DNA of 64,000 nt from Conexibacter arvalis (GTDB taxonomy: Bacteria; Actinomycetota; Thermoleophilia; Solirubrobacterales; Solirubrobacteraceae). The stretch is from NCBI RefSeq assembly GCF_014199525.1, contig NZ_JACHNU010000003.1, positions 248,001 to 312,000 of the forward strand, read 5' to 3'. Position 1 is the stretch's first letter, and each line of letters starts with the position of its first letter. Shown in pieces: positions 6,439 through 33,466 of this stretch. A program made the translations under genes and the position numbers. Under the pieces are notes generated by a model, which was not told the origin of the DNA, did not search any database, and saw only the letters and a list, made by a program, of their open reading frames with translations.

Positions 6439-6495
6439 GCGCGCGCGCCTCGGCCGCCCCGGTGAGGAATGCGGCGCGGCCGAGCGCGAGGAAGC

Positions 6496-10465: not shown

Positions 10466-10485
10466 GCCGGCCGGGCGCGCGGGCG

Positions 10486-10515
10486 CCGGCGCCGCGGTGC
10501 TCGCCGCGGCGCCGG
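10486..10515. terminator. Hairpin between convergent genes
   Basis: A perfect 12-bp stem (10486-10497 with 10504-10515) and a six-base loop lie between the ThyX-like gene and the convergent secreted-protein gene. There is only a short TTGT after it. It probably serves both directions. Confidence 0.6.
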
Positions 10516-10524
10516 TTGTCTCGC

Positions 10525-11631
10525 TCAGCGCGTCGCCGGGGCGAAGAAGGTCGAGCGGACGGGGCGTCTGCCCCGCGCGCTCAGCGTGACCTCGACGACG
10601 GCGCCGCCGTCGTCGAGGATCGCGGCCCGCTTGGAGGCCGGGATCGCGACCGCGATCGTGCGCGCCGCCTTCCCCGCCGGCAGCCTGCCCGCTCTCGTCG
10701 CGACCACGGTCGCGGCGCGGGCGAGCGGCGAGGAGGCGGCCGCGGACGGCGCCGGGCGCACGAAGCCGCGGCCGATCACGCCTCTCCCTCTCCGCGGCGG
10801 CAAGAAGACGCGGATCCGGTATCTGCAGCCGCGCGGGCATCTGGCGGTCGCTCTCGCTCTTCTCGCGCCGCGCTCGATCTTCGGCTGCTTCGGGACGACC
10901 GGGGCGAGCCGGTCGTCGCCGTCCTCTGATGCGAAGGTGCGGAAGAGCGTCAGCTCGACGTAGATTCTCGAGACGCAGTATCTGAGCTGCGTCGGGACGA
11001 AATCGCCGGGGCAGGTCGCCAGCCTGCGATCGGTGTGCCGCCCTCTGAGCCTGATCACGTGGTCGCCCAGATCGCCTCTCGGCACCGTCAGCGCCAGGCG
11101 CAGGTGGCCGGGGCCGGTGTCGTTGGAGCGGTGGGAGCGGGCGCCGAGCCGGAGGACGGCCCCGTTGACGGCGCAGTTGAGGTCGAAGGTCGCGATCGAG
11201 AACGGCGTGATCCCCATCGCGGCCGGCGCTGCTCTCGGGTCGACGGCGCGCAGCGGGTTCAGCACCCCCGCGAAGGTCTCCTTCACGGCCGTCGTGCTGC
11301 AGTTGGTGATGTCGGGCGGAGAGGTGTCGTTGTTCTGGTACGCCAGCTCCGCGCCGACGCCGTAGAAGCGCGCGCCGCTCGCCATCCGCTGCGTCAGCAG
11401 CGCGCCGTCGATGAATCTGAGGCCGCGGAACCAGCCGTTCACGCCCATGCCCGCGGAGATCGCGCGGGTCACCTTGCCGCTCTCGGTCGCCTCTTCGCTG
11501 CTGTAGTCGACGCCGGCGACCATCCAGGCGTCGTAGACGTATCTGACCTCGGCGTGCGCGGCGGGCGCGGCGGCGGCGAGCGCGAGCGCCGCCGCGCCTG
11601 CGGCGGCCAGCGCGCGTGCGCTGACGGACAT
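10525..11631 (-). CDS. Secreted protein of unknown function
   Basis: 368 residues. A clear Sec signal peptide, about 27 residues ending in AHAEV, exports it. The mature part has no family I recognise. The N-terminal two-thirds contains paired cysteines (NCST, LNCAV, TCPGDF, RYCVS) and is probably beta-rich. The last 120 residues are basic and include a CPRGCRYRIRVFLPP segment like repeats of actinobacterial cell-surface proteins. ATG 11631 is chosen because the signal peptide begins there. The same frame stays open far upstream, but that part lies inside the next gene. Confidence 0.65.
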   Translation of the reverse strand: MSVSARALAAAGAAALALAAAAPAAHAEVRYVYDAWMVAGVDYSSEEATESGKVTRAISAGMGVNGWFRGLRFIDGALLTQRMASGARFYGVGAELAYQNNDTSPPDITNCSTTAVKETFAGVLNPLRAVDPRAAPAAMGITPFSIATFDLNCAVNGAVLRLGARSHRSNDTGPGHLRLALTVPRGDLGDHVIRLRGRHTDRRLATCPGDFVPTQLRYCVSRIYVELTLFRTFASEDGDDRLAPVVPKQPKIERGARRARATARCPRGCRYRIRVFLPPRRGRGVIGRGFVRPAPSAAASSPLARAATVVATRAGRLPAGKAARTIAVAIPASKRAAILDDGGAVVEVTLSARGRRPVRSTFFAPATR

Positions 11632-21036: not shown

Positions 21037-21666
21037 GTGGTGCCCAACCAAGCTCAGAGTTGGCTTTCGTCAGCCCGTTTCCAACCGTTCTTGGATGAGG
21101 CCGCCGGCGACCACGAACGGGCGCTTGAGCTGTACGACTGGCACGCGGACTTGGCGGCGGCGTGCTTCGGGATGGTCCACCACTTCGAGGTTCTCGTCCG
21201 CAACGCGATCGACGCCGTGCTCGGCGACGGCCAGCCGCAGGACCCGATCCGCGACACATGGCTGATGGACTTCGGAATCCTCCAGCCCGACGGTGTGAAG
21301 CAGGTGATCGTCGCCGTCGAGCGCCTCGACAGAGGCAAAGCGGTCACACGCGGCCGCGTCGTCGCCGGCGTCTCGTTCGGCTTCTGGGCCGGCCTCTTCA
21401 GCAAGACCTACGAAGAGCTGTGGCGTCACCAGCTTCGCCACGCCTTTCCTCACGGCTCCGTCGTCCGAAGAGATCTGACCCAGCGCATGCGTCTGCTCCA
21501 ACGCTTCCGCAACCGCATCGCGCACCACGACTGCTTGCTCAAGCAAGACATCGCCACGCGATGCGACGACATGCTCCTCATCGCTGGCTGGATCGACCCG
21601 CACGCCGAGCGCTGGCTCGCCGAACGCACCCGCGTCCCGGCGCTGCTCGACGCGCGGCCGATCTGA
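21037..21666 (+). CDS. Abi-like HEPN-domain protein
   Basis: 209 residues from GTG 21037 (a second GTG follows at once). The architecture resembles Abi_2/AbiD-F proteins: an N-terminal helical region with HFEVLVRNAIDAVLGD and a C-terminal RLLQRFRNRIAHHDCLL segment carrying the Rx4H motif of HEPN ribonucleases. Such proteins typically act in abortive infection by cutting RNA. Codon use is less GC-biased than in neighbouring housekeeping genes, suggesting transfer. A TAGGGT hexamer at 21023-21028 could give a near-leaderless transcript. Its stop is one base from the convergent bcp stop, just outside the integrated element. Confidence 0.72.
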   Translation: MVPNQAQSWLSSARFQPFLDEAAGDHERALELYDWHADLAAACFGMVHHFEVLVRNAIDAVLGDGQPQDPIRDTWLMDFGILQPDGVKQVIVAVERLDRGKAVTRGRVVAGVSFGFWAGLFSKTYEELWRHQLRHAFPHGSVVRRDLTQRMRLLQRFRNRIAHHDCLLKQDIATRCDDMLLIAGWIDPHAERWLAERTRVPALLDARPI

Positions 21667-21667
21667 G

Positions 21668-22141
21668 CTACGCCGCCGCGCTCAGCTGCTCCAGGACCTT
21701 CAGCACCTCGTCGTCGTGCGTTCTCGGCGAGACTCTCGGGATCACGTGGACGACGGTGCCCTCGCCGTCGATCACGAAGGTCGCGCGCTGGGCGCCCCAG
21801 AATCTCTTGCCGTACATGCTCTTCTCGGCCCAGACGCCGTAGGCCTCGCAGACGGCGTGGTCCTCGTCGCCGAGGAGGGTGAAGTCGAGCGCGAACTTGT
21901 CGGCGAATCTCTTCACCTTGGCGTAGGGGTCGGGCGAGACGCCGATCACGACGGCGCCGGCCTCGGCGTAGTTGGGCAGGTGGTCGCGCACGCCGCACGC
22001 CTGCGTCGTGCAGCCGGGCGTGTCCACTTTGGGGTAAAAATACAGTACAATGGTCTTACCCTGCAGACCCGACAGACGCACCGGATCTCCGTTCTGATCC
22101 GGCAGCTCGAAGTCAGGTGCCTGCTGGCCCGTCTCGATCAT
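21668..22141 (-). CDS. bcp: Thiol peroxidase Bcp (peroxiredoxin), chimeric host/element gene
   Basis: 157 residues. It reduces H2O2 and organic peroxides using the peroxidatic cysteine in FYPKVDTPGCTTQAC. ATG 22141 has GGAG six bases upstream; a second in-frame ATG at 22153 adds four residues. The gene crosses attL: bases 21668-22022 are host sequence, whereas the first ~40 codons come from the integrated element. The codons just inside the element (TATTTTTACCCC) are AT-rich and unlike the host part. The original host 5' end survives at 33335-33466. Any promoter now lies in element DNA, only 37 bases from the divergent integrase start. Confidence 0.92.
   Translation of the reverse strand: MIETGQQAPDFELPDQNGDPVRLSGLQGKTIVLYFYPKVDTPGCTTQACGVRDHLPNYAEAGAVVIGVSPDPYAKVKRFADKFALDFTLLGDEDHAVCEAYGVWAEKSMYGKRFWGAQRATFVIDGEGTVVHVIPRVSPRTHDDEVLKVLEQLSAAA
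22000..22050. other. attL attachment site
   Basis: The host-derived left part (up to 22022) encodes the reverse of DTPGCTTQAC. The presumed TC crossover core is 22023-22024 and element sequence starts at 22025. Placement rests on reconstruction: joining the host sequence left of the core here to the host sequence right of the core at 33349 restores an unbroken peroxiredoxin motif. Confidence 0.8.
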
Positions 22142-22178
22142 CGTTCGCTCCATTCAGCCTGGGAGGTTCCGCCGCAGT

Positions 22179-23555
22179 ATGGCTGCCGCCAGACAACGAC
22201 GCGCGCTCGGAGTCGTCCGCGTATCGCGCGTCGCGGGACGCGACGGCAGAGGCGCCAGAGACGACAGAGGCGATCGACTTCTCTCGCCCGCCGAACAGCG
22301 CGACCGGATCGAGCGGCTCTGCGAACGAGAGAGACTCGACCTCCTCGACCTCAACGTCCAGCCCGAGCTGAACACCTCCGGCGGCGACCCGCTCTCCAAG
22401 CGCGAGGGACTCCGCACCGCCATCGAGGCAGTCGAGGCGGGCAGGGCGGAAGTGATCGTCGTCGCCTACTTCGACCGGCTGGTGCGATCGCTCAGAGTCC
22501 AAGCCGAAGTGCTCGAACGAATCGAGGCAGCCGGCGGCAGAGTACTCGCTGCCGATGTAGGCGAGATCAGCGGCGAGACGGCCGCCAAGTGGCTCTCGGC
22601 CACTATGCTCGGGATGGTCAGCGAGTACGTGCGCCGCACCACCGCCGAGCGGACGAGAGGCGCCCAGCGGCGCGCCGTCGAGGAGGGTCGGCCACCGTTC
22701 CCGCTGATCCCCGGTCTCATCCGCGTCAAGGAGCGCGTCGAGATCGATCACGACCTCGCCGACGTCGTGCGCGAAGCCGTTGCGATGCGCGCTCGGAAGG
22801 AGACGATCGCCAGCATCCGCGGGCACCTTCGCAGCCAGGGGATCGAACGGTCGTATCACGGCGTGCAGTCGTTGATCTCGTCACGGCTGCTGATCGGTGA
22901 AGTCGTCTTCGGCGACTACCGTGGCAGCGTGCCAGCACTGATCGAGGACCGGGCGCTCTGGGAGAAGGCCCAACGCGCGAGAGTCCCGCGAGGCCGGCGG
23001 CCGAGATCGGACCGCCTGCTTGCTCGACTCGGCGTCCTGCGCTGCGGCACCTGTGGCGCTCGCATGGTTGTCGGAAGTGCCAACAACCGCCAGTACCCGC
23101 TCTACCGCTGCCCGCCAGTCGGGGACTGCACCCGGCGGGTGACGATCAGCGCAGAGTTGGTCGAAGGCACCGTGGTCGATCACGTGAAGCTGTTGCTCGC
23201 CGACCTGAACGGCAGAGCCTCCGCAGACCAAGGGATGCTTGCTGCGTCTGCACGGCTCGATCGCACCCAGGAAGAGCTGGACGCCGCCATCCGCGCGTTC
23301 TCCGCGCTCGGCGACGAACCGGCAGCGGTCGCACGACTCGCGGAGCTGAGAGCCAACCGCGACGCAGCGCGCGACGAATACGAGCGGATGGCCGACACCC
23401 AGGCCGCACTGACCATCACCGTCGCCGACTGGGACGACCTCACCCGTGACGAGCAGCGCGACCTGATCAGTGCCGTGATCGAGACCGTGACCGTTCAGCC
23501 TGGGCGTGGCGCTGATCGCATCGCTGTTCATCCACGAGCGCTAGCCGCCTCATGA
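22179..23555 (+). CDS. int: Large serine recombinase (integrase)
   Basis: 458 residues. It catalyses attP x attB recombination through a serine-DNA link. The catalytic serine is S16 in GVVRVSRVAG. The resolvase domain continues with VVAYFDRLVRS (the conserved DRLxRS) and the long E-helix around LSATMLGMVSEYVRRTTAERT. Then come the recombinase domain, a zinc ribbon (CGTC ... YRCPPVGDC) and a C-terminal coiled coil (about 340-410). ATG 22179 follows GGGAGG at a somewhat long spacing. It lies at the left end, reading into the element and divergent from bcp. Confidence 0.93.
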   Translation: MAAARQRRALGVVRVSRVAGRDGRGARDDRGDRLLSPAEQRDRIERLCERERLDLLDLNVQPELNTSGGDPLSKREGLRTAIEAVEAGRAEVIVVAYFDRLVRSLRVQAEVLERIEAAGGRVLAADVGEISGETAAKWLSATMLGMVSEYVRRTTAERTRGAQRRAVEEGRPPFPLIPGLIRVKERVEIDHDLADVVREAVAMRARKETIASIRGHLRSQGIERSYHGVQSLISSRLLIGEVVFGDYRGSVPALIEDRALWEKAQRARVPRGRRPRSDRLLARLGVLRCGTCGARMVVGSANNRQYPLYRCPPVGDCTRRVTISAELVEGTVVDHVKLLLADLNGRASADQGMLAASARLDRTQEELDAAIRAFSALGDEPAAVARLAELRANRDAARDEYERMADTQAALTITVADWDDLTRDEQRDLISAVIETVTVQPGRGADRIAVHPRALAAS

Positions 23556-23713
23556 GACGCCGGTTGGCGGCTGCGGCCGTGTCGGCCGGTCAGTCTGCTC
23601 GGGCACCCTCGGAAGGTCGCTCGCGCCAATTCTCAGCTCCGCTGAATTCATGTGCGTGTGTCGTGTAGCCAGCCATACTGATGGTCTATTTCAACCATCC
23701 ACAGGAGGCAACG
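23556..23713. other. Intergenic region after the integrase
   Basis: 158 bp with no gene. It becomes AT-richer near 23630-23700, where a promoter for the next gene is likely, and contains a small TCAGC/GCTGA inverted repeat near 23634. AGGAGG at 23703-23708 is the SD of the gene at 23714. Confidence 0.4.
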
Positions 23714-24034
23714 ATGAGCGTGCAGTCGAAGGTAGATGACAGAGCGACCAAGGCCCGTGAGCGGGCGGCGGCAAGAGCGACGCCCGAGATCGCGAAGGTC
23801 CTCAACGACGGCCAGCGGATCAGACTCGCGGCACTGATCGAGAAGGTCGCGAAGGACGCGGCCGACACCGGCCTCAACGAGTACGACGAGACGGTGATGA
23901 AGCGGCTCGGCAACACGGTCGTGAAGCACGGCCTGCTCGTCGGCTACACGGCCGCGAAGTACGGCGACGGCGCATGGCTGGCGAGATCGACCAGCAGGAC
24001 GCTCGCGAGAGCGTTCGAGGCCGCGAAGTCATGA
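23714..24034 (+). CDS. Small helical protein of unknown function
   Basis: 106 residues, not recognised. ATG 23714 is fixed by a perfect AGGAGG six bases upstream. The protein is basic and helical (DDRATKARERAAARATPEIAKVL), then has a second region with VKHGLLVGYTAAKYGDGAWLARS. It has no signal or membrane segment. Its stop overlaps the DUF488 start as ATGA, so the two are probably translated together. Confidence 0.75.
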   Translation: MSVQSKVDDRATKARERAAARATPEIAKVLNDGQRIRLAALIEKVAKDAADTGLNEYDETVMKRLGNTVVKHGLLVGYTAAKYGDGAWLARSTSRTLARAFEAAKS

Positions 24035-24480
24035 CCGTCCCGCTCGTCACGAGCTACTGGCGGGCGGTCCTCGCAGACGCGAGGGGAAGCAACCAACGCC
24101 CGGCCTACACGCCAGTCGCTGCAAGTGTTGGACTGCCTCGCGGCGTCCGGTGGGCCAATGCGATGCGGTGCTCGGAGATCACGCCGTGGGGACTCGTCAG
24201 CGCCAAGGCGAAGGAACTGACGGCGGACGAGTGGCGCGAGCGCTACGTCGCCCGCTTGGAGCGCCACGGCGTCGAGAAGATCCAACAGCGCTTCGAGACG
24301 CTCTACCGCGAGTACGGCAAGCACCCGCTCGCGCTGCTGTGCTGGGAGGAGAACCCGGCCGACTGCCACCGCAGCTACTTCGCTGACTGGTGGGCGGCGA
24401 GAACCAGCCAGGTCGTGCCCGAGGCGATCGGCCTCGACAGGCAATCGCTGATGCTCTCGCTCAGCGGCGCGCTGTTCTGA
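24031..24480 (+). CDS. DUF488-family protein
   Basis: 149 residues. The C-terminal half carries the DUF488 signature LALLCWEENPADCHRSYFADW, near residues 105-125, with the Cys-His pair of the family. An N-terminal extension includes PRGVRWANAMRCSEITPWGL. The biochemical role of DUF488 proteins is not established; they occur often in mobile elements. Translation is coupled to the preceding gene by ATGA. A 16-bp palindrome starts 12 bases after its stop. Confidence 0.82.
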   Translation: MTVPLVTSYWRAVLADARGSNQRPAYTPVAASVGLPRGVRWANAMRCSEITPWGLVSAKAKELTADEWRERYVARLERHGVEKIQQRFETLYREYGKHPLALLCWEENPADCHRSYFADWWAARTSQVVPEAIGLDRQSLMLSLSGALF

Positions 24481-24491
24481 ATTTGCGCGCA

Positions 24492-24533
24492 GTCTCGGCG
24501 CCGAGACAGTGAGCGTCATATCATCTGTATAAC
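24492..24533 (+). promoter_or_regulatory. Element operator site 1 with candidate promoter
   Basis: The perfect palindrome GTCTCGGCGCCGAGAC occupies 24492-24507, and a good -10 (TATAAC) is at 24528-24533. The palindrome's right half would overlap the -35 position, as expected for repression. Near-identical palindromes occur at 30998 and 33272 within the element; I saw no copy elsewhere in the window. Confidence 0.55.
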
Positions 24534-24615
24534 GACCCGGTTCCTTCCGCTGTGCGGCGTAACGTTCTCCAAGCGATCGTCACGGAACGCGCCGACGACA
24601 AGGAGAGGCAGCACG

Positions 24616-24996
24616 ATGCAGCAGCAAGAACGCCCTGAGGCGGTGAACGCGGCGTCCGTCGCCTTCGCCGACCTGATCCGGCAGAAGGCCCGAAGAGGTC
24701 GCATCTCGTTCACGGCTGAGCCACCGGCCCAGCCCAGCGGCGGCGTGGCTCTTCTCGCTGATCTGCAAGCGGCCCGACAGTCCGGTGATCGAGTGCGGAT
24801 CGCGGCAGCCGAGGCCGCTGTCGATGTCGCTGTCGAGGAGGCATGCGAGAAGGTGCGCGAGAGCGCCGCTCGCCAGCAACAGCGCAGCACGACCCGGCAG
24901 CCGATCTGGCCGGCAGGCGCTCAGGCGCCCGAGCCGCCGGACGAGTTCGCACAGTTCGAGCAACTGTTGCGTCGGAAGATCGGGCGGGTGGCGTGA
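24616..24996 (+). CDS. Small acidic/helical protein of unknown function
   Basis: 126 residues, not recognised. Its SD AAGGAGAGG lies at 24600-24608. An Ala/Arg-rich helix spans about residues 12-90, followed by a Pro-rich linker (WPAGAQAPEPPDE) and a short helix ending LLRRKIGRVA. The stop overlaps the next start as TGATG. It is the first gene downstream of operator site 1, so it probably heads a small operon. Confidence 0.72.
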   Translation: MQQQERPEAVNAASVAFADLIRQKARRGRISFTAEPPAQPSGGVALLADLQAARQSGDRVRIAAAEAAVDVAVEEACEKVRESAARQQQRSTTRQPIWPAGAQAPEPPDEFAQFEQLLRRKIGRVA

Positions 24997-25652
24997 TGTC
25001 TGAGCTGAAGCCGATCGACCTGGACTCGCCGATGTCGTCCGGTCCCTACCAGGGGCCGCCGCCCGAGGTGATCTCGCATCCGCTGATCGCTGACGCCGTG
25101 GGCGGCTACTTGAAGGCGCGAGCTGAGGCCCGCGCCGCACGCCAGGACGTGACCGAGCTGGAGCATCAGCTCCCGAACGCCGAGCAGGCCGACAAGGAGG
25201 CGCTCGCAGACGCCATCGCTGCCGGTAGAAGAGATCCCGGCACCAAGCACGCTGACGCCCACCGGGCGAAGATCGAGCAGGCGAGACGGACCGCCGAGGC
25301 GTACACGGTGATCGAGCAGCGTCGTCTAGCCGACCTTCAGCCCGTGCTCGACCAAGGTCAGGAGGAGTGGTTCGCGCAGGCGACTGACGACGTTCGACGC
25401 CTGGAAGCTGAACGGATCTCGGCGATCAAGATGCTGGCTGAGGTCAACAACCGCCTCGACCACGCTCGCAGTGTGTGGAACTTCGCTCGCGGTGGCCGCT
25501 ACCACGCTCTCGACGTGTTCAAGACCCAAGCCGGCGAGCGCACTACGGTCAGCGTGATCGGTGAGCTGCTCGACCACGCGAAGCAGCCGTGGCCGAAGAC
25601 GCCGAGAAGACCGCGGTTCACCGGCGGGCCGATGATCGCTTCGCACGGCTGA
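24996..25652 (+). CDS. Coiled-coil protein of unknown function
   Basis: 218 residues, not recognised. A Pro-rich N-terminus (SSGPYQGPPPEVI) is followed by long coiled-coil helices (about residues 35-150) with heptad-like ARAARQDVTELEHQLPNAEQ. The C-terminal 60 residues are basic and end in a Pro/Arg-rich tail. Size and helix content are compatible with a phage scaffold- or head-associated protein, but no homology is visible. It is coupled to the preceding gene through TGATG. Confidence 0.72.
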   Translation: MSELKPIDLDSPMSSGPYQGPPPEVISHPLIADAVGGYLKARAEARAARQDVTELEHQLPNAEQADKEALADAIAAGRRDPGTKHADAHRAKIEQARRTAEAYTVIEQRRLADLQPVLDQGQEEWFAQATDDVRRLEAERISAIKMLAEVNNRLDHARSVWNFARGGRYHALDVFKTQAGERTTVSVIGELLDHAKQPWPKTPRRPRFTGGPMIASHG

Positions 25653-25668
25653 GGTAGCACCAGCGCCG

Positions 25669-26073
25669 ATGACCGCCCGCCCCTGTATCGAGCGGTTGCC
25701 GGACGGTCGCGGCTGCCCCGAGTACGCGGAGCCGGGCGGCTCCCGGTGCGCCGGGCACGAGGCCGAGCACGAACGCAACCGCCGTACGCCCTCACAGAGG
25801 GTCACCGAGACGCAGCGCTGGCGGAAGCTGCGCAGACACCTGATCGCCACCCGTCCCCACGTCTGCGGGATCTGCGGCAAGCGCATCCTCCACGAGCGCG
25901 ACATCGAAGCCGATCACGTCGTGGAGGTCGTGAACGGCGGCAGGCCGTACGACCCCGCGAACGTCCAGCTCACCCACAAGCGCTGCAACCGCGCGAAGCG
26001 GGCCAGAGCGATCCGCAGGCCGTCACCCGCTGGTCGCGGCTACCGCCCACCGTGGACGCTCGGCGAGGACTGA
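25669..26073 (+). CDS. HNH endonuclease
   Basis: 134 residues. The C-terminal 75 residues form an HNH nuclease: the CGICGKRI zinc knuckle, the IEADHVVEVVNGG active-site strand with DH, and NVQLTHKRCNRAKRAR closing the finger. A second cysteine set at the N-terminus (RPCIERLPDGRGCP...SRCAGH) adds another zinc-binding region. Small HNH proteins of this type are common beside phage terminases and are required for packaging by some cos phages. It follows the coiled-coil gene by 16 bases. Confidence 0.9.
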   Translation: MTARPCIERLPDGRGCPEYAEPGGSRCAGHEAEHERNRRTPSQRVTETQRWRKLRRHLIATRPHVCGICGKRILHERDIEADHVVEVVNGGRPYDPANVQLTHKRCNRAKRARAIRRPSPAGRGYRPPWTLGED

Positions 26074-26349
26074 ATGCCCCGAACGATCCCAGGCGATCTC
26101 CGGCCCTCTCGCCATCCAGACCCACGCACCTACTCGGACACCCGACTTGACGGCGTATGCGGCGGTTCTGTGGCTCTCGCGACGGTGTCCGGGGGTCCCG
26201 GCCGATAGCCGCAAGAGCGCAGCACCCCCGGCTCGCTACCTCGCGCGGTCTAGCCGACCAGATCTGATCGCTGAACTGCCCAGAGAGGCGGCTGACCGTG
26301 AGAGACTCACGACGCTTCGCGTACCGGGTGCGACAAGGAGGACGTTCTC
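26074..26349. other. Non-coding gap with inverted repeat, possible packaging site
   Basis: 276 bp without a credible gene. It contains CCGGGGGT (26189-26196) and its exact complement ACCCCCGG (26224-26231) around a 27-base GC-rich loop, and GTGAG/CTCAC near 26298. The SD AAGGAGG precedes GTG 26350. Lying next to the HNH gene in an element with terS, it could hold a cos site or a terminator, but nothing proves it. Confidence 0.35.
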
Positions 26350-27414
26350 GTGGCTCAGTGTTTCTGTGGATGTGGCCGGAAGGTCAAGTTCGGCATGCGC
26401 GCCGTCAACAAGCGCGGAGCGATCATCCGTGCCGACGTGGCTGTCGTAGAACGGCTCGTAGAGCGTGGCATGAAGTCGCCCAACAGTGAGGCGTTCGTCC
26501 ACGACGGCCTTCTGATGTGCGCCGATCTTGCCGAGGCAGTGCATGCCGGTGTCAATCCCGGACCGGTGCTCCAGGAGCAAACGGCCGGCTTCATGGCCTT
26601 CGCGCGGCAGAACTTCAGCGAACCCGTCCTCGGGCGCAACCTCCGTGAGGCCGGTCTGTCCGTCGACCAAGCGGTAGCTGAGATTGGTGCTGGGACGCTT
26701 GACCCGTTCGAGAATGTCGACTACCCGTTCAAGGAAGCGCCCTATGACGACGCCGATGCCGAGAAGTTGGCAACGACTTCGCCCGACCTCGGGGAGGATT
26801 TCGTCGTCATCCCCCATGACGAGGCACAGCGAATCGCGCACGAGATCGCGGACAAGGCTGCCGCAATGTTCGAAGAACTCGCGCCACCTCCCGACGAAGT
26901 CCTGAGCATTCTGCAAATCGGCCTGCTCGGGGTGCTCAACGTTCAAGGGCGCGACCCCGACGACGTGCAGCCCGATGCCCTTCTCGTGGGCCAGACGATC
27001 GCGCGTATGGGCTTCAACGTCCGCATGCTTGAGTTCGAGGGCTACAACAGCGCACGCGAAGCCGATCTCGACTTCCTGCACGTCTTCCAAGAATGGGCCG
27101 AAGATCCTGAGTTTGGCGGCCCCGGCATGGACCTCACGATCACCGAAGCGGCAGCTCAAATCGCATCCGCCGAAACCCTCGACGCCGACCCTGACGACTC
27201 AGCGGCGTTCCTGTGGCGCGTTCCTGGTCTCGGGGGCGCTATCCGCACACTCGCTGCCCAGCGGTGCGTCCTGGCCGCCACGATCATCGATGAGTCAGGC
27301 GACCGCCGCAGCTGGGAGCACGTCAACAGCGAAGACCTGCTCCGCACCTGGATCTTCGGATTCGCCGTCCGCTACATGGTCGAGCTTCTCAACGACGGCG
27401 AGCGCATGCACTGA
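26350..27414 (+). CDS. Large acidic protein with N-terminal CxCGC motif, unknown
   Basis: 354 residues from GTG, with a strong SD just upstream. The N-terminus MAQCFCGCGRKVKFGMRA resembles a compact zinc knuckle also seen in other actinobacterial hypothetical proteins. The rest is acidic and helical, with HDEAQRIAHEIADKAAAMFEEL and VLSILQIGLLGVLNVQGR. No catalytic motif is recognised. Codon use is less GC-biased than in flanking host genes. It ends about 100 bases before a convergent gene. Confidence 0.75.
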   Translation: MAQCFCGCGRKVKFGMRAVNKRGAIIRADVAVVERLVERGMKSPNSEAFVHDGLLMCADLAEAVHAGVNPGPVLQEQTAGFMAFARQNFSEPVLGRNLREAGLSVDQAVAEIGAGTLDPFENVDYPFKEAPYDDADAEKLATTSPDLGEDFVVIPHDEAQRIAHEIADKAAAMFEELAPPPDEVLSILQIGLLGVLNVQGRDPDDVQPDALLVGQTIARMGFNVRMLEFEGYNSAREADLDFLHVFQEWAEDPEFGGPGMDLTITEAAAQIASAETLDADPDDSAAFLWRVPGLGGAIRTLAAQRCVLAATIIDESGDRRSWEHVNSEDLLRTWIFGFAVRYMVELLNDGERMH

Positions 27415-27513
27415 CCGCCGGCACGCTCCTCAAAGAACACCGGGGCACTCGGCGTCCCGCCGGCACAGCTCCTCGCCGCGATCGACTGACGCGGCATCCC
27501 TAGCGGGGAGATC

Positions 27514-28122
27514 TCATCCCCACCATCTGTCCTGTGGCCGTTCGGCTTCCACCAGTCTGCGCAAGGCGTTGTCGCGCCGGATCGCTGCGGCTCTCGCAAG
27601 CTCTCCCACTCCAGCCCGGATCTCCCGCTCATCGACGCTTCCTGCGAGTGCCAGCAGCATGTTCGCAACGCTCTCGCGGGCGTCTCTCGGGCTGCTGAAC
27701 CATGCGTTCGGGTTCGTGAATCTGCCCGCCGCCGCCGGCCCCAACGCGAGCCGAATGTACTCAGCCGTCCGTCTGGTCCAATCCTCCATCTCGGCTATGC
27801 CCCGCTGCCACGCGAACACGCCGGGCCGCGACGTCGCAACGTTCAGCTCTTCCCATGCCGCCACCAGCTCGGCCTCGACCACGCTCGCCACGCCACGATG
27901 GTCGCTCTCCCGTTGCAGAGCCAGCCCGGCCAGCACCGACAACACGAGCAGCACACCAAGCACGCCCGCAAGCGCCCACGCAGGCCCGACCGCGACACCG
28001 AGAATCGTCGGGCTTGCGATCAACGCGATCGCAGCGACGACCCACTGCACGACCGTCTGGACGTCGCCCGCGAGGGAAAGAGGTCGCCCAAGCCGAACCA
28101 GGTAGCGCCCGACCGATCGCAT
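27514..28122 (-). CDS. Membrane-anchored protein of unknown function
   Basis: 202 residues. Two hydrophobic helices (about residues 24-43 and 47-68) are followed by a soluble helical domain containing WQRGIAEMEDWTRRTAEYIRLALGP and a C-terminal basic helix. It lies eight bases downstream of the 28131 gene and is probably co-transcribed with it. Topology fits a membrane sensor or exclusion-type protein, but this is only analogy. Confidence 0.65.
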   Translation of the reverse strand: MRSVGRYLVRLGRPLSLAGDVQTVVQWVVAAIALIASPTILGVAVGPAWALAGVLGVLLVLSVLAGLALQRESDHRGVASVVEAELVAAWEELNVATSRPGVFAWQRGIAEMEDWTRRTAEYIRLALGPAAAGRFTNPNAWFSSPRDARESVANMLLALAGSVDEREIRAGVGELARAAAIRRDNALRRLVEAERPQDRWWG

Positions 28123-28130
28123 GCCGACGT

Positions 28131-28355
28131 CTACAAGCCCGGCGAGACGCCACGCGCAGCGAATCTCTCCATGAGGTTGTCGCGCTCATCAGCAACCCGA
28201 CTGAGGTCCTTCGCAGCCAACGAGATCGCGTTGCACGCCCACTGCTCGTCCCCAGCAGCCAGGTGTCTCGCGGCCTCTTCAACCGTGGCCAACAGCTTCC
28301 CTGCGTCCTTCTCCATCTCCGCGATGTATTCCGCGACGGTTGGTCCCGTGCCCAT
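28131..28355 (-). CDS. Small helical protein of unknown function
   Basis: 74 residues. ATG 28355 has GGAGGAG five bases upstream, which rejects a longer reading to 28478. The protein is an amphipathic helix-turn-helix-like bundle (EYIAEMEKDAGKLLATVEEAARHLAAGDEQW) ending LMERFAARGVSPGL. It is first of a two-gene unit with 27514-28122. Confidence 0.68.
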   Translation of the reverse strand: MGTGPTVAEYIAEMEKDAGKLLATVEEAARHLAAGDEQWACNAISLAAKDLSRVADERDNLMERFAARGVSPGL

Positions 28356-28489
28356 GGCAGCTCCTCCGGTCGTAGGAGGCGCGAGCCTACGCCAACCGCC
28401 GCATGCGGGATCGCAGTTCCGGCCCGACCCCGCTCCGTCCAGCAAGCCGCCCTGCCCCACCCGCTTGCATCTCCCCATACGCTCCGCGC

Positions 28490-29026
28490 ATGCTGCCGCC
28501 CGTCTACTCCGCGATCGAGGTCCGCGACGTGCTGCTCCCCGTGCTGACGTTCGCGGGCGGGCTGATCGGTGTTCTCGTTGCCGGCCGCATGAACCGGAAC
28601 ACGCTCACCGCGCTCCAGAGCAGACAGGCAGCGGAAGAGAGAGCACTGCACGAGGCGCGCCGCGAAGAAGAAGCCCGAGGCGAACGACGGATGGCACTCG
28701 GCGCGGCGAAGGTGCTCAGCGAAGAACTCCGGCGTAGCGCGCTGCTGCTTGAGCTCATGAGAACCGAAGCGGGAGACCCCGGCAACCGTGCAGAACGACA
28801 CGCCGAAGAGCTGCCACTCAGGATCCGCGCCGAAGACCTGGCGCTGCTCGCCCGGCACATGACCGACGACGCATGGCTCAAGCTCGCAGAAGCACGGGCA
28901 CGGCTCGACCAGGAACGCTGGGACTACGAGTACTCCGACTTCCTGAACATGAACGACACGCTCGGCGCGATCGAGGACGCCCAGGGTGCGCTGCTTGACG
29001 AACTGATCCCATCGCTGTCCGAGTAG
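28490..29026 (+). CDS. Single-pass membrane protein with coiled coil, unknown
   Basis: 178 residues. A transmembrane helix at about residues 12-32 (LLPVLTFAGGLIGVLVAG) is followed by a charged coiled coil (about 40-90), then a helical domain with LLARHMTDDAWLKLAEARARLDQ. ATG 28490 starts just before the membrane helix. Its start lies 134 bases from the divergent 28355 start. Similar Tm-coiled-coil proteins occur in many actinobacterial genomes without known function. Confidence 0.68.
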   Translation: MLPPVYSAIEVRDVLLPVLTFAGGLIGVLVAGRMNRNTLTALQSRQAAEERALHEARREEEARGERRMALGAAKVLSEELRRSALLLELMRTEAGDPGNRAERHAEELPLRIRAEDLALLARHMTDDAWLKLAEARARLDQERWDYEYSDFLNMNDTLGAIEDAQGALLDELIPSLSE

Positions 29027-29133
29027 ACCCACCCCCATCACCCCCAGCCGGCGGACCTCTCCCATTCACCCCCACCTCGCCTCACGGCGCTGCGAAATAC
29101 AGCGAAAACGCCTGTGAAGCTGCGAGACTGGTC

Positions 29134-29637
29134 GTGATGAGAGGTCGCCGCCCGAAGAGCGTTGAGGTCAAGCTCCGCGAGGGCAACGTCGGCAGACGCA
29201 CCCAGCCGGTGATGCTGGTGTCGGGTCGTCCGATGCCCGAGGAGCTGGTCGACCCGCCCGAGCACCTGCCGAAGGACGCGCAGGAGTTCTGGCGGGAAGT
29301 CGTCCCGCAGCTCGCGAGCATCGGGATGGTCGACCGGATCGACAAGGTCGTGTTGGAGCTGCTCTGCACCCAGTACGCCCGAGCCCGCCAGGCTCAGCGT
29401 GTAGTGACCGAAGATGGGCACTTCGCCCTCGGTGCTGCTGGCCAAATCAAGGAGCACCCGGCCGTGAAGATCGAGCGTGAGGCGACGATCGTCTTCCTCC
29501 GCCTCTGCGAGCAGGTCGGCATCGGCCCGGTCGCCCGCGCACGCCTCGGGCTGGCGAGCCTCCACGGCCGGGCGCTGGCGAACGAGATGGACTCGGCGTT
29601 CGGCCCGGTGCATCTGACGCCAGTCGGCCAGGGCTGA
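29134..29637 (+). CDS. terS: Phage terminase small subunit, P27 family
   Basis: 167 residues from GTG 29134, or one fewer from ATG 29137. Terminase small subunits recognise the packaging site. The family pattern is visible: MRGRRPKSVEVKLREGNVGRR at the N-terminus, then LPKDAQEFWREVVPQLASIG, DRIDKVVLELLCTQYAR, the KEHPAVKIEREA motif and the C-terminal VGIGPVARARLGL block. No large terminase subunit gene lies nearby. In satellites, such an orphan terS redirects the helper phage's packaging machinery, and that is the inferred role here. Confidence 0.85.
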   Translation: MMRGRRPKSVEVKLREGNVGRRTQPVMLVSGRPMPEELVDPPEHLPKDAQEFWREVVPQLASIGMVDRIDKVVLELLCTQYARARQAQRVVTEDGHFALGAAGQIKEHPAVKIEREATIVFLRLCEQVGIGPVARARLGLASLHGRALANEMDSAFGPVHLTPVGQG

Positions 29638-29694
29638 CCGTCAGCGGCGATTGGGCGTGAGACAGCAGCGCGCCATGCCCGGCACGTTTCTCGC

Positions 29695-29724
29695 TTGACG
29701 CTGGGCGGCGGCGCCCTTCAGGAT
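29695..29724 (+). promoter_or_regulatory. Candidate promoter
   Basis: TTGACG (29695-29700) and CAGGAT (29719-29724) are separated by 18 bases, close upstream of an AGGAGGAG SD and ATG 29748. The -10 is weak, so this is a tentative call. Confidence 0.3.
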
Positions 29725-29747
29725 GCCTTCCCCCGAGGAGGAGAGAC

Positions 29748-30086
29748 ATGCCGCGACAGGACACCATCCAGCAGATCATCGCCACGTACGGGCGGCTGGC
29801 CAGCGAGGCGCACTACCGGCCAATGGCGCCGAGCGACGGTCTCGGCAACATCACCGTCCCAGAGGAAGAACTCGACCTCGAAGCCGAGGCAACCGACTAC
29901 ATGCAGCGCTGGGACGACGAGGAGGACAACGGCAGGTTCTACATCGGGACCTGCAACTTCGAGACGCGGCCCGCGACGATCTTCGCCGTGGAAGCTGCCC
30001 GCATGCTGTGCGCCACAGAGGACGACACCGCCCTCCGCCTTCTGCGCATGGCTGTCGCCGAACTGGAAGCACAGCAGGACGAGTAG
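29748..30086 (+). CDS. Small acidic protein of unknown function
   Basis: 112 residues with a strong SD (AGGAGGAG) upstream. It is acidic, with a predicted mixed fold (GRFYIGTCNFETRPATIFAVEAARMLCA) and a C-terminal helix LRLLRMAVAELEAQQDE. No family is recognised. It is followed nine bases later by the membrane-protein gene 30095. Confidence 0.68.
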   Translation: MPRQDTIQQIIATYGRLASEAHYRPMAPSDGLGNITVPEEELDLEAEATDYMQRWDDEEDNGRFYIGTCNFETRPATIFAVEAARMLCATEDDTALRLLRMAVAELEAQQDE

Positions 30087-30094
30087 GCGGCGCG

Positions 30095-30568
30095 ATGGCC
30101 GATCCCGCGACCATCCTGGTCGTCGCCGGGGGACTGTGCGAGGCGACCGGCATCGGCATCGCGTTCTACGAACTTGCGCTGATCCGTAGCCATGAGTTCG
30201 GGGTTGCCCTGCCCTGGGCGAGAAGGCGCTTGGAACACCGCGACGGACACGCAAACCGGGCCGGGTTCGGTGCCAGCCCGGCCGGTTACAGCGTGCCAGC
30301 GCGAGAGCATGTGCGCCGTCGAGTGAGCATTGAGGACGAGATGCAGTGGGGTCGAGACCTCAACACCGCCGTCGACCGAACCATGCGCGAGATCACGGAA
30401 CAGTCCCAACGGGATGACGCACGCATGAAGGCCGAACTCCAGGCCGAGCGCGCTCGAGAAGAGATGAGGCGGAAAGCCATTCTCCGACCCTCGCTCCAGC
30501 GCCAAGGGATCGGACTCGTGCTCGTCCTCATCGGACTTGTGCTGGGCACGATCGGCGGCCTGCTGTAG
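30095..30568 (+). CDS. Two-helix membrane protein, unknown
   Basis: 157 residues. One hydrophobic helix at each end (about 4-25 and 135-155) flanks a basic, charged coiled-coil middle (DRTMREITEQSQRDDARMKAELQAERAREEMRR). ATG 30095 is chosen at the first hydrophobic helix. The hairpin-like topology with both ends in the membrane is reminiscent of phage spanin- or exclusion-like proteins, but nothing supports a specific role. Confidence 0.65.
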   Translation: MADPATILVVAGGLCEATGIGIAFYELALIRSHEFGVALPWARRRLEHRDGHANRAGFGASPAGYSVPAREHVRRRVSIEDEMQWGRDLNTAVDRTMREITEQSQRDDARMKAELQAERAREEMRRKAILRPSLQRQGIGLVLVLIGLVLGTIGGLL

Positions 30569-30591
30569 CCGCGGCCGGCTATGGCTCGCCG

Positions 30592-30953
30592 CTACTCCAC
30601 GAGCAGCAGATCGTCGGGCGACACGCCCCGCTCGGCGAGCCGATCCCGGCGCTGCTCGACGCGGTATCGGTCGCGTGCCCACGCTGCGGTGCACGGTTTG
30701 CATTCGGAGCGCACGTAGCCTCGGCTGGCGGTGAACTCCTCGATCGCCTTCGTCTCGCCGCACCACGAGCACCGCTTGTCGATCGCGGCCGGCGCTCTTG
30801 GCCGGTGCGCTCTCCCGTAGGCGCATTGCACGCTCCGCACCGCCGCTCACGACCACCGGCCGACCGACGGCTGGTGGGGAATTGGTCCAGCGGCTTCGTC
30901 TCGCCGCAGACACGGCACACACGGGCCGCCTCGACAGGCACAGTCATGCTCAT
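30592..30953 (-). pseudogene. Duplicated zinc-finger protein gene with a -1 frameshift
   Basis: Two homologous halves are in different frames. Half one (start ATG 30953 or 30947) encodes RVCRVCGETKPLDQFPTSR...RCGACNA. Half two (about 30592-30840) encodes KRCSWCGETKAIEEFTASRGY...ECKPC and ends DDLLLVE. Each half is a CxxC...CxxC finger of the kind found in phage endonuclease-VII-like proteins. A one-base slip near 30830 would fuse them seamlessly, so this is a mutation, a sequencing error or programmed -1 frameshifting. A GTG at 30840 could start half two alone. Confidence 0.6.
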
Positions 30954-30997
30954 GGCCGGGATCGTCGCCGTGCGGCTGGACGGACAACCCTCTGTGC

Positions 30998-31013
30998 GTC
31001 TCGGCGCTGAGAC
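30998..31013 (-). promoter_or_regulatory. Element operator site 2
   Basis: The palindrome GTCTCGGCGCTGAGAC (one mismatch between halves) lies 44 bases upstream of the minus-strand start at 30953. It differs by one base from the site at 24492. Confidence 0.5.
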
Positions 31014-31236
31014 ACGGCGAGAACCTGACCACAATTCACGACTCCTGGCCACGTTAGTTCAACGACGTCGAGATCGAGCTAGAGGAGCTGCGCGGAGGCG
31101 AAAATCGTAGGACCAAGTGCCGGTTCAGACGTCGAGCCAATCGAACCTGCCCACAACAACAAACACTGCTCCGAGATATGGCCAGGTTCGCCGTCCCGAC
31201 CGACGCGCCGCGTAGCCTCGATCGTGTCGTACGGCA
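31014..31236. other. Intergenic stretch without a recognised gene
   Basis: This is the first part of a ~550-bp region (30954-31504) that lacks a gene on either strand. It is AT-richer than host DNA (for example CCACAACAACAAACA near 31151) and should hold the promoter of the structured RNA that follows. No clear promoter hexamers were found. Confidence 0.35.
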
Positions 31237-31416
31237 GGAGGGCGTCGCCGCGGATCAGAGGGCGGCGCCCTCCGTCTACATCCGGCGAGCTGGGTACAGT
31301 CAGCAGCGAGCGGGTCGGTCCCCAACCTTCTCCTGCTCGCTGTGCCAGACGATCCTGCGTCGTCTCCTTGTGTCGAAGCCCGCCCCGCTCTCCTCAGTGT
31401 CGGGGCGGGTTTCTTC
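31237..31416 (+). ncRNA. Candidate small non-coding RNA ending in a terminator
   Basis: Three hairpins follow one another: GGAGGGCG (31237-31244) with CGCCCTCC (31266-31273); CAGCGAGC (31304-31311) with GCTCGCTG (31335-31342); and CCCGCCCCG (31379-31387) with CGGGGCGGG (31401-31409) followed by TTTCTTC. The last is a classical plus-strand terminator, yet no plus-strand protein gene lies between it and 30568. This strongly suggests a short stable RNA. Its exact 5' end and role are unknown. Confidence 0.5.
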
Positions 31417-31504
31417 ATGTGTCCGGCATGCCGGCTACGGTCTCCGGTAACCCAGCCCTCACGGGGACCGAGCGGTCTGGGACGAACACTGAGGAGCAGT
31501 ACCG

Positions 31505-31921
31505 ATGCAGCACCAGGCGCTTGTCGCCGAGCAGCACAGCAACTCTCACCCCGGCGACGACGTGCTGATCGCCGAGGCGGTCGCAGACATCGCTGGCGAT
31601 CCGGAGCTTCGTCGGCTCCAACGGCAGTGCATGCAGCGGGCGAGCATCGATCCGCGATCGTGGGAGGCAGCCGTCATGCGCGGCGGCACGAGACGTGGAG
31701 CGCGCGCAACCAGAGCGGCCCGAACTTCGTCACGACCACGAGGAGCCGGACGGCCGGCTCCCCGACGTCGCGTCACCCGCTCTTCGTCGTCCAGCAGCGA
31801 CGACGACGGCCCAGCAGAACCAGCACCAGCTCTCACCCCGACAGCGCGCGCTGATGCTCAGCGAGTGCTCGACCGAGCCGCCCGCCGCATCCTGGCCGAG
31901 CGGCTGGAGCGACAGCCATGA
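31505..31921 (+). CDS. Protein of unknown function preceding the replication gene
   Basis: 138 residues with a GAGGAG SD upstream of ATG 31505. The N-terminal ~55 residues (VLIAEAVADIAGDPELRRLQRQCMQ) and C-terminal ~30 residues (ARADAQRVLDRAARRILAERLERQP) look helical and genuine. The middle is an Arg/Ser-rich low-complexity linker. The stop overlaps the primase start as ATGA, so it is probably co-expressed with the replication protein and might act as its partner. Confidence 0.68.
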   Translation: MQHQALVAEQHSNSHPGDDVLIAEAVADIAGDPELRRLQRQCMQRASIDPRSWEAAVMRGGTRRGARATRAARTSSRPRGAGRPAPRRRVTRSSSSSSDDDGPAEPAPALTPTARADAQRVLDRAARRILAERLERQP

Positions 31922-33405
31922 CGGGTGTCAACACCGCGCTGGAGCTTCACCAGCGCGGCTTCTGGCTGATCCCGTTGGCGGCCGGCAGCAAGACGCCGAA
32001 CTTCCGGGTGCTCAACGCTGTGTACGACGGCACCGCCGGATGGGGTGGTCTCACCGACCGTCGCGCGAGCGTCCCCGAGATCACGGCGTGGTTCGAGCAC
32101 GACCCGAGAACGAACGTCGGGATCGTCGTCACGGACGGCATGGTCGTGGTCGACGTTGACGACCCCAGCCGCTTCGACCACCACCACCCGCCCACACCGA
32201 CCGTCCGCACCCGGCGCGGATTCCACCTCTACTTCGCCGGCCGCCACGCCGGGGTCGCGAAGACCGCGTGGGGCGAGGTCCGGGGCACTGGCTCGTACGT
32301 CGTCGCCCCGCCGAGCGTCGTGGACGGCCATACCTACGAGTGGCCACTCGGTCTCGACCGGGCCGAGCTTGCACCGCTGCCCGAGTGGGCTTCGACCTCA
32401 CCCCTCACTACTAGGACCAATGGTCCTAGTAGAACGTCTAGAGAGACGGGGTCCGACGAAGCGCTGACCAGAAGCGCGATGGCGGTCGCAGCAGCACTCC
32501 GATCGATGGGTCGCCCCGATGCTCTTGATCCTGCTGGTGAGCGTCAGCGCGACTTCGCGTGTCTGCTGCCTGGCCACGACGATGCACACCCGTCCGCCAC
32601 GGTCTTCCGGTCTGCGAGCGGAGCGTTCCGGTATCGGTGCCGGGGATGTGGCGCGAACCTGTCGCTCGCTCGGCTGTTCGCGACCGTCACGACGGGGAGG
32701 CATGTCGCCGACGACGAGATGCGTGGCCCGACTGCCGCACGGTGGCTGAGGCGGCTGTGGCATCAGGCCGGCTTCGAACCGGTGACGATCGCGGGCAGAC
32801 TGCCGCAGGGCGTTTCCGTGACGGCGATGGAGCTGGCCGCCGGCTTCCGGCTGCTGGCCGCGCTGCGAGACGACGACGAGACGATCCCGTACACCGCCTT
32901 GTTCGCGGCCGGCTGGTGCAACCTGGACCTCGAAGCGGCCAAGGCCGGCCTGAAGGAGCTGCGGGCCTGCGGGTGGCTCAGACCGACCGGCCCGAGCCGA
33001 CCGGGCGTCGGCTACCTGTACGAGACGCCGTCAGAGGATCGTGCGGCCGAGTCTGGCGCCGTGGATGTTCTCCCACCAGATCGCCCGGCACCGATCGAAA
33101 GACATGACCGCGTCCCCGTTCTCCACCCAGCGAGCGAACGCGGTGACGAGCGTCAGGTGCGCGTCGCAGAGTTCCTCCCCGACGACAGCCTCGTCGTCGC
33201 AGCAAGCAGCACAGCAGCGGTTGGTCTCCATGCGATGGAGCGTACGCGCAGCGTCGGAGCGGTTGCCGGCTGTCTCGACGCCGAGACGGAAGAGTGTGGC
33301 CAGCGCTGGCGGCGCAAGCCAGGTTACTTCTTTTTCAACCCTTCCTCTCGGCCTTCGGATAGAAGTAGAGGACGACCGTCTTGCCCGCGAGGTCGGACAG
33401 GCTGA
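31918..33405 (+). CDS. Prim-Pol/CHC2-type replication protein
   Basis: Up to 495 residues. The N-terminal Prim-Pol (AEP) domain shows the HQRGFWLIPL start, the catalytic aspartates in MVVVDVDDPSRF, the RRGFHLYF histidine motif and RGTGSYVVAPPSVV. A linker with palindromic DNA follows, then a primase-type zinc finger (CLLPGHDDAHPSA...YRCRGCGANLSLARLF) and a winged-helix-like region ending near residue 375. Such proteins prime and copy satellite or plasmid origins. From about 33030 the frame is low-quality, overlaps an antisense gene and even crosses attR into host bcp, so the true functional C-terminus is uncertain. Confidence 0.82.
   Translation: MTGVNTALELHQRGFWLIPLAAGSKTPNFRVLNAVYDGTAGWGGLTDRRASVPEITAWFEHDPRTNVGIVVTDGMVVVDVDDPSRFDHHHPPTPTVRTRRGFHLYFAGRHAGVAKTAWGEVRGTGSYVVAPPSVVDGHTYEWPLGLDRAELAPLPEWASTSPLTTRTNGPSRTSRETGSDEALTRSAMAVAAALRSMGRPDALDPAGERQRDFACLLPGHDDAHPSATVFRSASGAFRYRCRGCGANLSLARLFATVTTGRHVADDEMRGPTAARWLRRLWHQAGFEPVTIAGRLPQGVSVTAMELAAGFRLLAALRDDDETIPYTALFAAGWCNLDLEAAKAGLKELRACGWLRPTGPSRPGVGYLYETPSEDRAAESGAVDVLPPDRPAPIERHDRVPVLHPASERGDERQVRVAEFLPDDSLVVAASSTAAVGLHAMERTRSVGAVAGCLDAETEECGQRWRRKPGYFFFNPSSRPSDRSRGRPSCPRGRTG
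32408..32448. repeat. Paired palindromes inside the primase gene
   Basis: CTACTAGGACCA (32408-32419) and its exact complement TGGTCCTAGTAG (32421-32432) flank a single A. Immediately after, CGTCT/AGACG (32435-32439, 32444-32448) forms a second inverted repeat. They lie in the linker between the Prim-Pol and zinc-finger domains and are AT-rich for this genome. Possible roles are replication origin or protein-binding site. Confidence 0.55.
33031..33231 (-). CDS. Small zinc-binding protein, antisense to the primase 3' end
   Basis: 66 residues. METNRCCAACCDDEAVVGEELCDAHLTLV gives CxxC and Cx2H ligands of a small zinc finger, followed by a Trp-rich AFARWVENG...AIWWENIHG segment that looks far more protein-like than the sense frame here. 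ATG 33231 lies in a CTCCAT-GCG-ATGGAG inverted repeat (33226-33240) and is 40 bases below operator site 3. No family is assigned. It runs head-on into the primase gene. Confidence 0.6.
   Translation of the reverse strand: METNRCCAACCDDEAVVGEELCDAHLTLVTAFARWVENGDAVMSFDRCRAIWWENIHGARLGRTIL
33272..33287 (-). promoter_or_regulatory. Element operator site 3
   Basis: The palindrome GTCTCGACGCCGAGAC (one mismatch) lies 40 bases upstream of the minus-strand start at 33231, the same distance class as site 2 from its gene. Confidence 0.5.
33324..33375. other. attR attachment site
   Basis: Element sequence runs up to 33347, the TC core is 33348-33349, and host bcp continues from 33350. Around the core, the element half here and the element half at attL share a mirrored GGG-x-T-x-AAAA...AGTA pattern at matching distances, as expected of the two arms of a serine-integrase attP. 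Confidence 0.78.
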
Positions 33406-33466
33406 CGTCGTTGCCGTCCTGGTCGGGAAGCGTGAACTGCGGAGCCTTCTCGCCGGTCTCGATCAT
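33335..33466 (-). pseudogene. bcp: Displaced 5' end of the host bcp gene
   Basis: From ATG 33466 (AAAGG upstream) it encodes MIETGEKAPQFTLPDQDGND... through YFYPKA, then runs into element DNA and stops after ERKG, 43 codons in all. It is the original host start of the peroxiredoxin interrupted by the element. It parallels the replacement copy at 22141, which differs in sequence but encodes a similar peptide. The host promoter upstream now drives only this fragment. Confidence 0.88.

Follow-up and report, generated by a model that had tools for sequence, protein, structure and literature searches.

Can a short integrated element that carries packaging genes and no recognised virion genes travel in the particles of another phage, or is it what is left of a decayed prophage? 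The question is raised by a locus of Conexibacter arvalis in the 64,000-nucleotide stretch analysed here, referred to as the window (G000:C3:248001-312000), which belongs to a 5.2-Mb genome of 18 contigs that is 99.16% complete. The original prediction had placed a candidate satellite of a new type at positions 24616-33405, with a large serine integrase, a P27-type terminase small subunit (TerS), an HNH nuclease and a primase-polymerase (Prim-Pol). Of the possible readings, a satellite is the one that our results support best. The element ends precisely within a host gene, its integrase gene is open, and it combines a TerS lacking a terminase large subunit (TerL) with a packaging-type HNH nuclease and a primase of its own; it also falls in a ~10-kb size class to which capsid-bearing elements at this site belong, and an operator-like palindrome is concentrated in it. 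With some reservation, we lean towards an integrated phage satellite without its own capsid, whose TerS and HNH nuclease would redirect the packaging of a helper phage. The element probably spreads by borrowing another phage's particles.

Boundaries and insertion site of the element

The whole integrated element (no strand assigned) was mapped to about 22030..33354, corresponding to 11,325 bp, from its composition, its junctions in a bcp-type peroxiredoxin gene and the empty sites of related genomes. The 11.3 kb given in the original prediction holds for this whole element; the narrower interval at 24616-33405 had to be revised, as the integrase, g117 and DUF488 genes on the left are also included. 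The guanine-plus-cytosine (GC) content is 0.671 over the mapped element and 0.727 in the remainder of the window. Along the window it ranges from 0.65 to 0.70 at ~21-34 kb and is mostly 0.69-0.79 elsewhere, with the first 1-6 kb likewise at 0.66-0.70.

The insertion target is the bcp gene, and the crossover lies within its Pro-Lys codons. At attL (22022..22060, minus strand) the element arm TTGTACTGTATTTTTACCCC is followed by the host half, as aligned with the empty sites and with the arms of two related elements, L056 and L059; the arm motif is identical in the window and L056 and has three different bases in L059. The full-length bcp frame at attL (21668..22153, minus strand; AhpC-TSA, expectation value (E) 3.1e-39; internal ATG at 22141) is composed of the host C-terminal part and element-borne first ~37 codons. 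The host's own first ~37 codons are stranded at attR as a 5' remnant (33335..33466, minus strand; host part 33354-33466), which was recognised from the junction and from its identity of 80-97% to the bcp genes of six congeners. The downstream half of the attL frame is 81-88% identical to the same six genes and its first ~37 codons are 62-66% identical. Because these first codons diverge while the attR remnant and the downstream half match the congeners, we attribute them to the element, and with its own bcp 5' codons integration leaves a full-length bcp frame at attL.

The bcp gene is present in all seven genus genomes searched (source genome counted) and is uninterrupted through the junction in the other six, from all of which the integrase is absent at E 1e-20. 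Read from these alignments, the event is a precise site-specific integration in bcp with the frame restored at attL, and the chimeric bcp is a predicted intact frame. An integrase with a specific attachment site is also a feature of phage-inducible chromosomal islands (PICIs), and it is found here with attL and attR in bcp and six of six uninterrupted congener sites. Neither an Rfam nor a tRNA scan of the window produced a match, so there is no tRNA attachment site. Just outside attL, in the low-GC stretch, lies an Abi_2/PD-T4-5-like abortive infection gene (21037-21666), which may belong to the host or to an older insertion.

Packaging and replication genes without virion genes

Pfam and PHROGs scans covered 20 proteins (18 of the element plus the flanking Abi and bcp proteins) and the NCBIfam scan covered 10. 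Genes named below are on the plus strand unless marked otherwise. The four gene assignments at the core of the original prediction were borne out. The large serine integrase of 458 amino acids (aa; 22179..23555) matches Resolvase (4.5e-17), Zn_ribbon_recom (6.9e-9) and phrog_95 (7.9e-57). The P27-family TerS, which stands without TerL (29134..29637), matches Terminase_4 (5.8e-17), phrog_83 (1.7e-33) and TIGR01558 (1e-19, above its cut-off). The HNH endonuclease (25669..26073) matches PF01844 (1.2e-9) and phrog_338 (1.3e-16), and the Prim-Pol (31918..33405), with a CxxC-containing middle part, matches PF09250 (4.8e-23); in alignment, its homology to relatives stops at about 33050.

Relatives of the HNH nuclease occur in four records of three phages in the phage collection, and with one record opened per phage they were near terminase genes in all three. 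In ctl617 and PMBT6 the HNH gene lies one or two small genes before TerL, while in KLEA5 it is at the record end and TerS at the record start. Judged by this context of its relatives, the HNH nuclease of the element is of the packaging type.

TerS relatives were found in 14 of the 399 class genomes, source genome counted. At six of the 13 other loci (L029, L030, L031, L032, L037 and L038) a small home-made profile detected TerL beside TerS; in the stretches of the other seven (L028, L033, L034, L035, L036, L039 and L040) the same profile detected it nowhere. With PF03354, six of the seven genomes had no match, and the seventh, G044, had a single one below the cut-off on a different contig. PHROGs confirmed a head protein at three of the TerL-less loci (L034, L036 and L039), unlike the window element, in which no capsid gene was recognised. 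Of the remaining four, L028 and L033 were assessed only by eye, the contig of L035 measures 8.1 kb, and L040 has a TerS interrupted by stops. From the absence of TerL in these seven stretches, small integrated elements with TerS and no TerL seem to be a recurrent feature of the class, and in three cases a capsid gene is confirmed. An additional TerS match lies near a related integrase in L063, whose contig ends 0.6 kb away. In L028 (80-5492), TerS is located between a RepA-like ATPase and a 1032-aa restriction-like gene, both named by eye, a possible satellite with defence cargo.

No TerL, portal, capsid, tail or lysis gene was recognised in the element by Pfam and PHROGs (18 proteins) or NCBIfam (10 proteins), in agreement with the original prediction. 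Besides TerS, virion-type labels were limited to phrog_9667 on the integrase C-terminus (E 0.006) and phrog_4581, 'terminase small subunit', on the HNH domain (3.2e-5); animal-virus names from Pfam fell far under their cut-offs (E 0.06 and 0.33). A six-frame search of the whole genome returned zero matches to TerL_ATPase PF03354, portal PF04860 and capsid PF05065, other TerL, portal and capsid families being outside the search, and this TerS gene was the sole Terminase_4 match. The sensitivity of PF03354 is incomplete, since the small home-made profile picked up TerL genes in G139 and G342 that PF03354 did not detect; the absence of TerL therefore rests on the two together. As for the structural-gene remnants that mark decayed prophages, six-frame searches using three Pfam families and four small home-made profiles detected none for TerL, portal or head. 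In having its own TerS as a putative packaging redirector and no recognised TerL or virion genes, the element resembles PICIs; it lacks the own TerL, portal and capsid of capsid-forming PICIs.

The remaining genes have mostly no assigned function. Downstream of the integrase, the small protein g117 (23681..24034) and the DUF488 protein (24031..24480; PF04343, 6.2e-6) both have relatives in L025, an element described below (tblastn 1.7e-5 and 2.4e-14, respectively). They are followed by g126 (24616..24996), an open frame with no significant Pfam or PHROGs family, and g219 (24993..25652), predicted to form a long helical hairpin by single-sequence AlphaFold2 (mean predicted local distance difference test score (pLDDT) 72.7). 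For g354 (26350..27414) no family and no relative were found, and its AlphaFold2 model was unusable (mean pLDDT 37.6). The minus strand carries r202 (27514..28122), a putative membrane protein by its hydrophobic stretches seen by eye, and the open frame r115 (28131..28478). The adjoining g207 (28403..29026) has a hydrophobic stretch near its N-terminus, again by eye, and no similarity to an L025 membrane protein. TerS is followed by the open frames g112 (29748..30086) and g160 (30086..30568), and g138 (31505..31921) lies directly upstream of Prim-Pol with a 4-bp overlap.

Two overlapping minus-strand frames (30592..31052) encode small Cys-rich proteins with endonuclease VII/Lar-like zinc motifs (phrog_1035 and phrog_5558) and have a relative in L056 (tblastn 1.8e-5). 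These frames repeat a zinc motif (80% DNA repeat at 30722/30868) and are possibly a broken gene. A further small Cys-rich frame, supported by its coding score, is antisense to the Prim-Pol 3' end (33031..33231, minus strand). A link between a small Cys-rich protein and an L025 counterpart was too weak to claim (E 0.055).

The palindrome GTCTCGRCGCYGAGAC occurs in the element at 24492, 30998 and 33272. Its three copies (no strand assigned) span 24491..24508, about 110 nt ahead of g126; 30997..31014, 43 nt upstream of position 30953, where the longer Cys-rich frame has an internal ATG; and 33271..33288, 39 nt upstream of the Cys-rich frame ATG at 33231 and also within the 3' part of the Prim-Pol frame. 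Three-copy palindrome families appeared in none of 200 first-order Markov shuffles of the element (two copies in six), and in one of five host segments, where they consisted of low-complexity GCGGC repeats. Genome-wide, the degenerate pattern matches exactly at four places, three of them in the element and the fourth inside a host reading frame; in ten related loci no exact form was seen. Judging from this distribution, the palindrome may be a candidate operator of the element's switch. With regard to other PICI features, regulators and capsid-size or interference genes had no family-search match among the element's proteins, and the three-copy palindrome suggests an operator; Prim-Pol is present as a replication gene, and repeat searches recognised no iteron array.

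Relatives of the integrase and of the replication gene

Integrase relatives were detected in 14 of the 146 family genomes at E 1e-20 and, with a five-sequence profile at E 1e-60, in 10 of the 399 class genomes, with the source genome counted in both. The integrases of L056, L059 and the phage contig L095 described below are 49-53% identical to that of the element. A related integrase is flanked by bcp fragments on both sides in two genomes, with 9.9 kb between cores at L056 (G438) and 10.5 kb at L059 (G388). At L060 (G363) and L105 (G369), both located at contig ends, such a fragment accompanies the integrase on one side. No bcp was found at L061 and L063, whose integrases are 40-45% identical.

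The two elements with both ends carry capsid genes. L059 encodes TerL (phrog_9, 1.6e-70), portal (phrog_12, 4.5e-83), protease/head (phrog_2263, 4e-23; phrog_80, 3e-17), HNH (phrog_144, 1.3e-18) and primase-helicase (phrog_10729, 3.5e-21) proteins. The viral contig L097 (8.4 kb) has the same gene set, with a TerL 76% identical over 215 aa, and no tail match was obtained among the proteins scanned in either. L056 encodes a head protein (phrog_10, 7.3e-11) together with an FtsK-like one (phrog_1358, 1.1e-33); such a pairing of phage head and translocase within a 9.9-kb bcp element (L056:8640-18540) is an odd combination. Compared with the interior of the window element, the L059 and L056 proteins gave nothing beyond weak HNH and zinc-motif matches.

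A full phage uses the same target. On the 40.8-kb phage contig L095, the integrase shares 53% identity with that of the element, and a bcp 5' fragment lies at attP. The 18.5 kb examined include TerL, the portal start, a primase and a single-strand binding protein, and the bcp fragment and the integrase are separated by an attP-like stretch with inverted arms of 9 bp, seen by eye. From this phage and the small bcp elements with related integrases it follows that full phages and small elements share an integration system. The window proteins matched L095 only in the integrase and bcp. An attachment site never used by temperate prophages is described as a PICI feature (PMC6092414); at the level of this clade it does not hold, as L095 has bcp 5' codons at its attP.

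Searches of viral contigs with the integrase profile yielded 17 loci, all of which were searched by tblastn and four of which had genes called (L090, L095, L097 and L098). In L098 (4405-6168) an HNH nuclease and a TerL appear to be fused in one frame (phrog_1808 and phrog_9). In the phage and plasmid collections, the integrase matched two phage records and one plasmid, all distant. Viral contigs scanned with single proteins (TerS, integrase, Prim-Pol or g354) yielded no relatives.

Prim-Pol relatives were found in five of the 399 class genomes by protein search and in three of the 232 order genomes by profile, source genome counted each time. Among genome contigs there were two partial matches at 28-35%, viral contigs gave 28 weak and partial profile matches, and the phage and plasmid collections gave none. 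On the recurrence of the same gene set in other genomes, a check suggested in the original prediction, no second genome was found carrying the exact set, and the nearest is L025 (G234), which shares Prim-Pol, HNH, DUF488 and g117 with the window element. L025 also contains a TIR-TM defence gene (5610-6446; PADLOC 2.8e-46), and its Prim-Pol (9297-11070) is split across two overlapping frames by a frameshift or an assembly error.

The satellite reading, its rivals and known systems

In the proposed life cycle, the integrase would excise the element once a helper phage is active, and Prim-Pol would start replication of the excised circle. The P27 TerS and the HNH nuclease would recognise a packaging site on the element and pass its DNA to the helper's TerL, capsid and tail, and the packaged copy would reinsert into bcp of the next cell.

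Several observations weigh against this reading. No helper prophage was detectable in the genome by PF03354, PF04860 or PF05065. No repressor, excisionase, interference gene, cos or pac site or origin was recognised in the element. TerS and HNH are 3 kb apart and non-adjacent, and all 530 phage records matching TerS are below 60% identity (28-39% among the 30 matches listed). In L025, the closest element by Prim-Pol, HNH and DUF488, no TerS is detectable and the serine-integrase-like gene is a different one. L058, with an integrase 51-53% identical, shows no bcp on its 29-kb contig, where the neighbour gene by eye is miaB-like. Reading through attR without a stop, the Prim-Pol frame extends ~50 bp (its last ~17 codons) into the host bcp remnant. 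The palindrome was noticed post hoc with a pattern written from the three element copies, and one-mismatch matches occur at 10 more genome places, all outside the element.

A decayed prophage, or a capsid-bearing satellite whose TerL-portal-capsid block was lost and which has ceased to be packaged, would account for the integrase clade and attachment gene shared with the 40.8-kb L095 and the capsid-bearing L056 and L059. It would also fit the TerL that comes next after TerS at six of the 13 other class loci, and the untidy look of the Prim-Pol 3' end and the Cys-rich gene pair. However, the six-frame searches with the three Pfam families and the four small profiles uncovered no remnant of the supposed block, the integrase, TerS, HNH and Prim-Pol domain are all open, both ends are clean, and the interior has little in common with L056, L059 or L095. 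The repeated palindrome also argues for regulation being kept, and we regard such decay as rather unlikely. We likewise find it improbable that the locus holds a non-phage integrative element, a defence or cargo island or an element like the integrative mobilizable elements (IMEs), replicated by Prim-Pol and carrying TerS and HNH as passengers. L025, with the shared genes, a TIR-TM defence gene and no detectable TerS, points in that direction, as do the several element genes without an assigned family; yet no relaxase or FtsK/TraB family was found among the 18 element proteins scanned with Pfam, TerS co-occurs with a packaging-type HNH nuclease, and the relatives at the bcp site bear capsid genes.

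We tentatively propose that, in this high-GC family, satellites of ~10-11 kb form one lineage that shares one serine-integrase clade and the gene-restoring bcp site with full temperate phages and swaps packaging modules. These modules would be TerS and HNH only in the window, HNH, TerL, portal and protease-capsid in L059, and capsid and FtsK in L056, forming a natural series of phage, capsid-forming satellite and capsid-less satellite at one locus. If this is true, one chromosomal gene serves as a dock for full phages and for capsid-bearing and capsid-less satellites with related integrases, and conversions of lifestyle could be followed there without a change of integration system. Packaging piracy by TerS and HNH would then be known from a further high-GC group, the serine integrases would gain a site at which the target gene is rebuilt instead of being lost, and the palindrome would be a concrete candidate operator.

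Among integrated elements of actinomycetes, the actinomycete integrative conjugative elements (AICEs) integrate site-specifically, carry a Prim-Pol type replicase in some cases and are defined by an FtsK/TraB translocase. The window element is also site-specific but has a TerS and no such Pfam family, and the FtsK-like protein of L056 matches nothing in the window.

Satellite families have been reviewed (PMC11389934). In Staphylococcus aureus pathogenicity islands (SaPIs), the island's own TerS is used with the helper's TerL (PMC5052747). SaPIs and other PICIs resemble the element in having their own integrase, a replication gene and their own TerS without TerL (PMC6092414, PMC5052747). They differ from it in that here the integrase is of the serine type, regulators and interference genes are not recognised, and the site is used by phage too. 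Since the exclusive-site feature fails at clade level and induction is a prediction, we do not file the element as a PICI, although it may work like one. Capsid-forming PICIs are matched by L059 and L097 with TerL, portal and protease-capsid (and HNH in L059), whereas the window element has the HNH only (PMC11389934). The PLE (phage-inducible chromosomal island-like element) of Vibrio cholerae is also reported to be a satellite with a large serine recombinase and differs in host and genes (PMC6002521).

For actinobacteria, earlier work reports small prophage elements suspected to be satellites (PMC10023795) and Streptomyces satellites of another kind (PMC10690885). In the open-licence literature, we found nothing relevant on a serine-integrase satellite with TerS or on a serine integrase at a peroxiredoxin gene.

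The elements phiRv1 and phiRv2 are ~10 kb in size. They are described as PICI-like in a Mycobacterium study that also reports candidate PICIs, some with serine integrases, phage packaging genes and some positions at prophage sites (PMC10654092). These candidates are similar to the window element in being small and integrated, with serine integrases and terminase genes in some and sites sometimes shared with prophages, and helper induction is likewise not demonstrated for them. They are defined by an integrase plus a major capsid gene; the window element has the integrase, but no capsid was recognised (no PF05065 in the genome and no head PHROG beyond TerS-type labels). The satellite reading of the original prediction stands as the best supported, while its novelty does not: capsid-bearing satellites of this general kind, serine-integrase candidate PICIs with packaging genes, are already reported in Mycobacterium (PMC10654092), and the element is a variant of them rather than a new kind.

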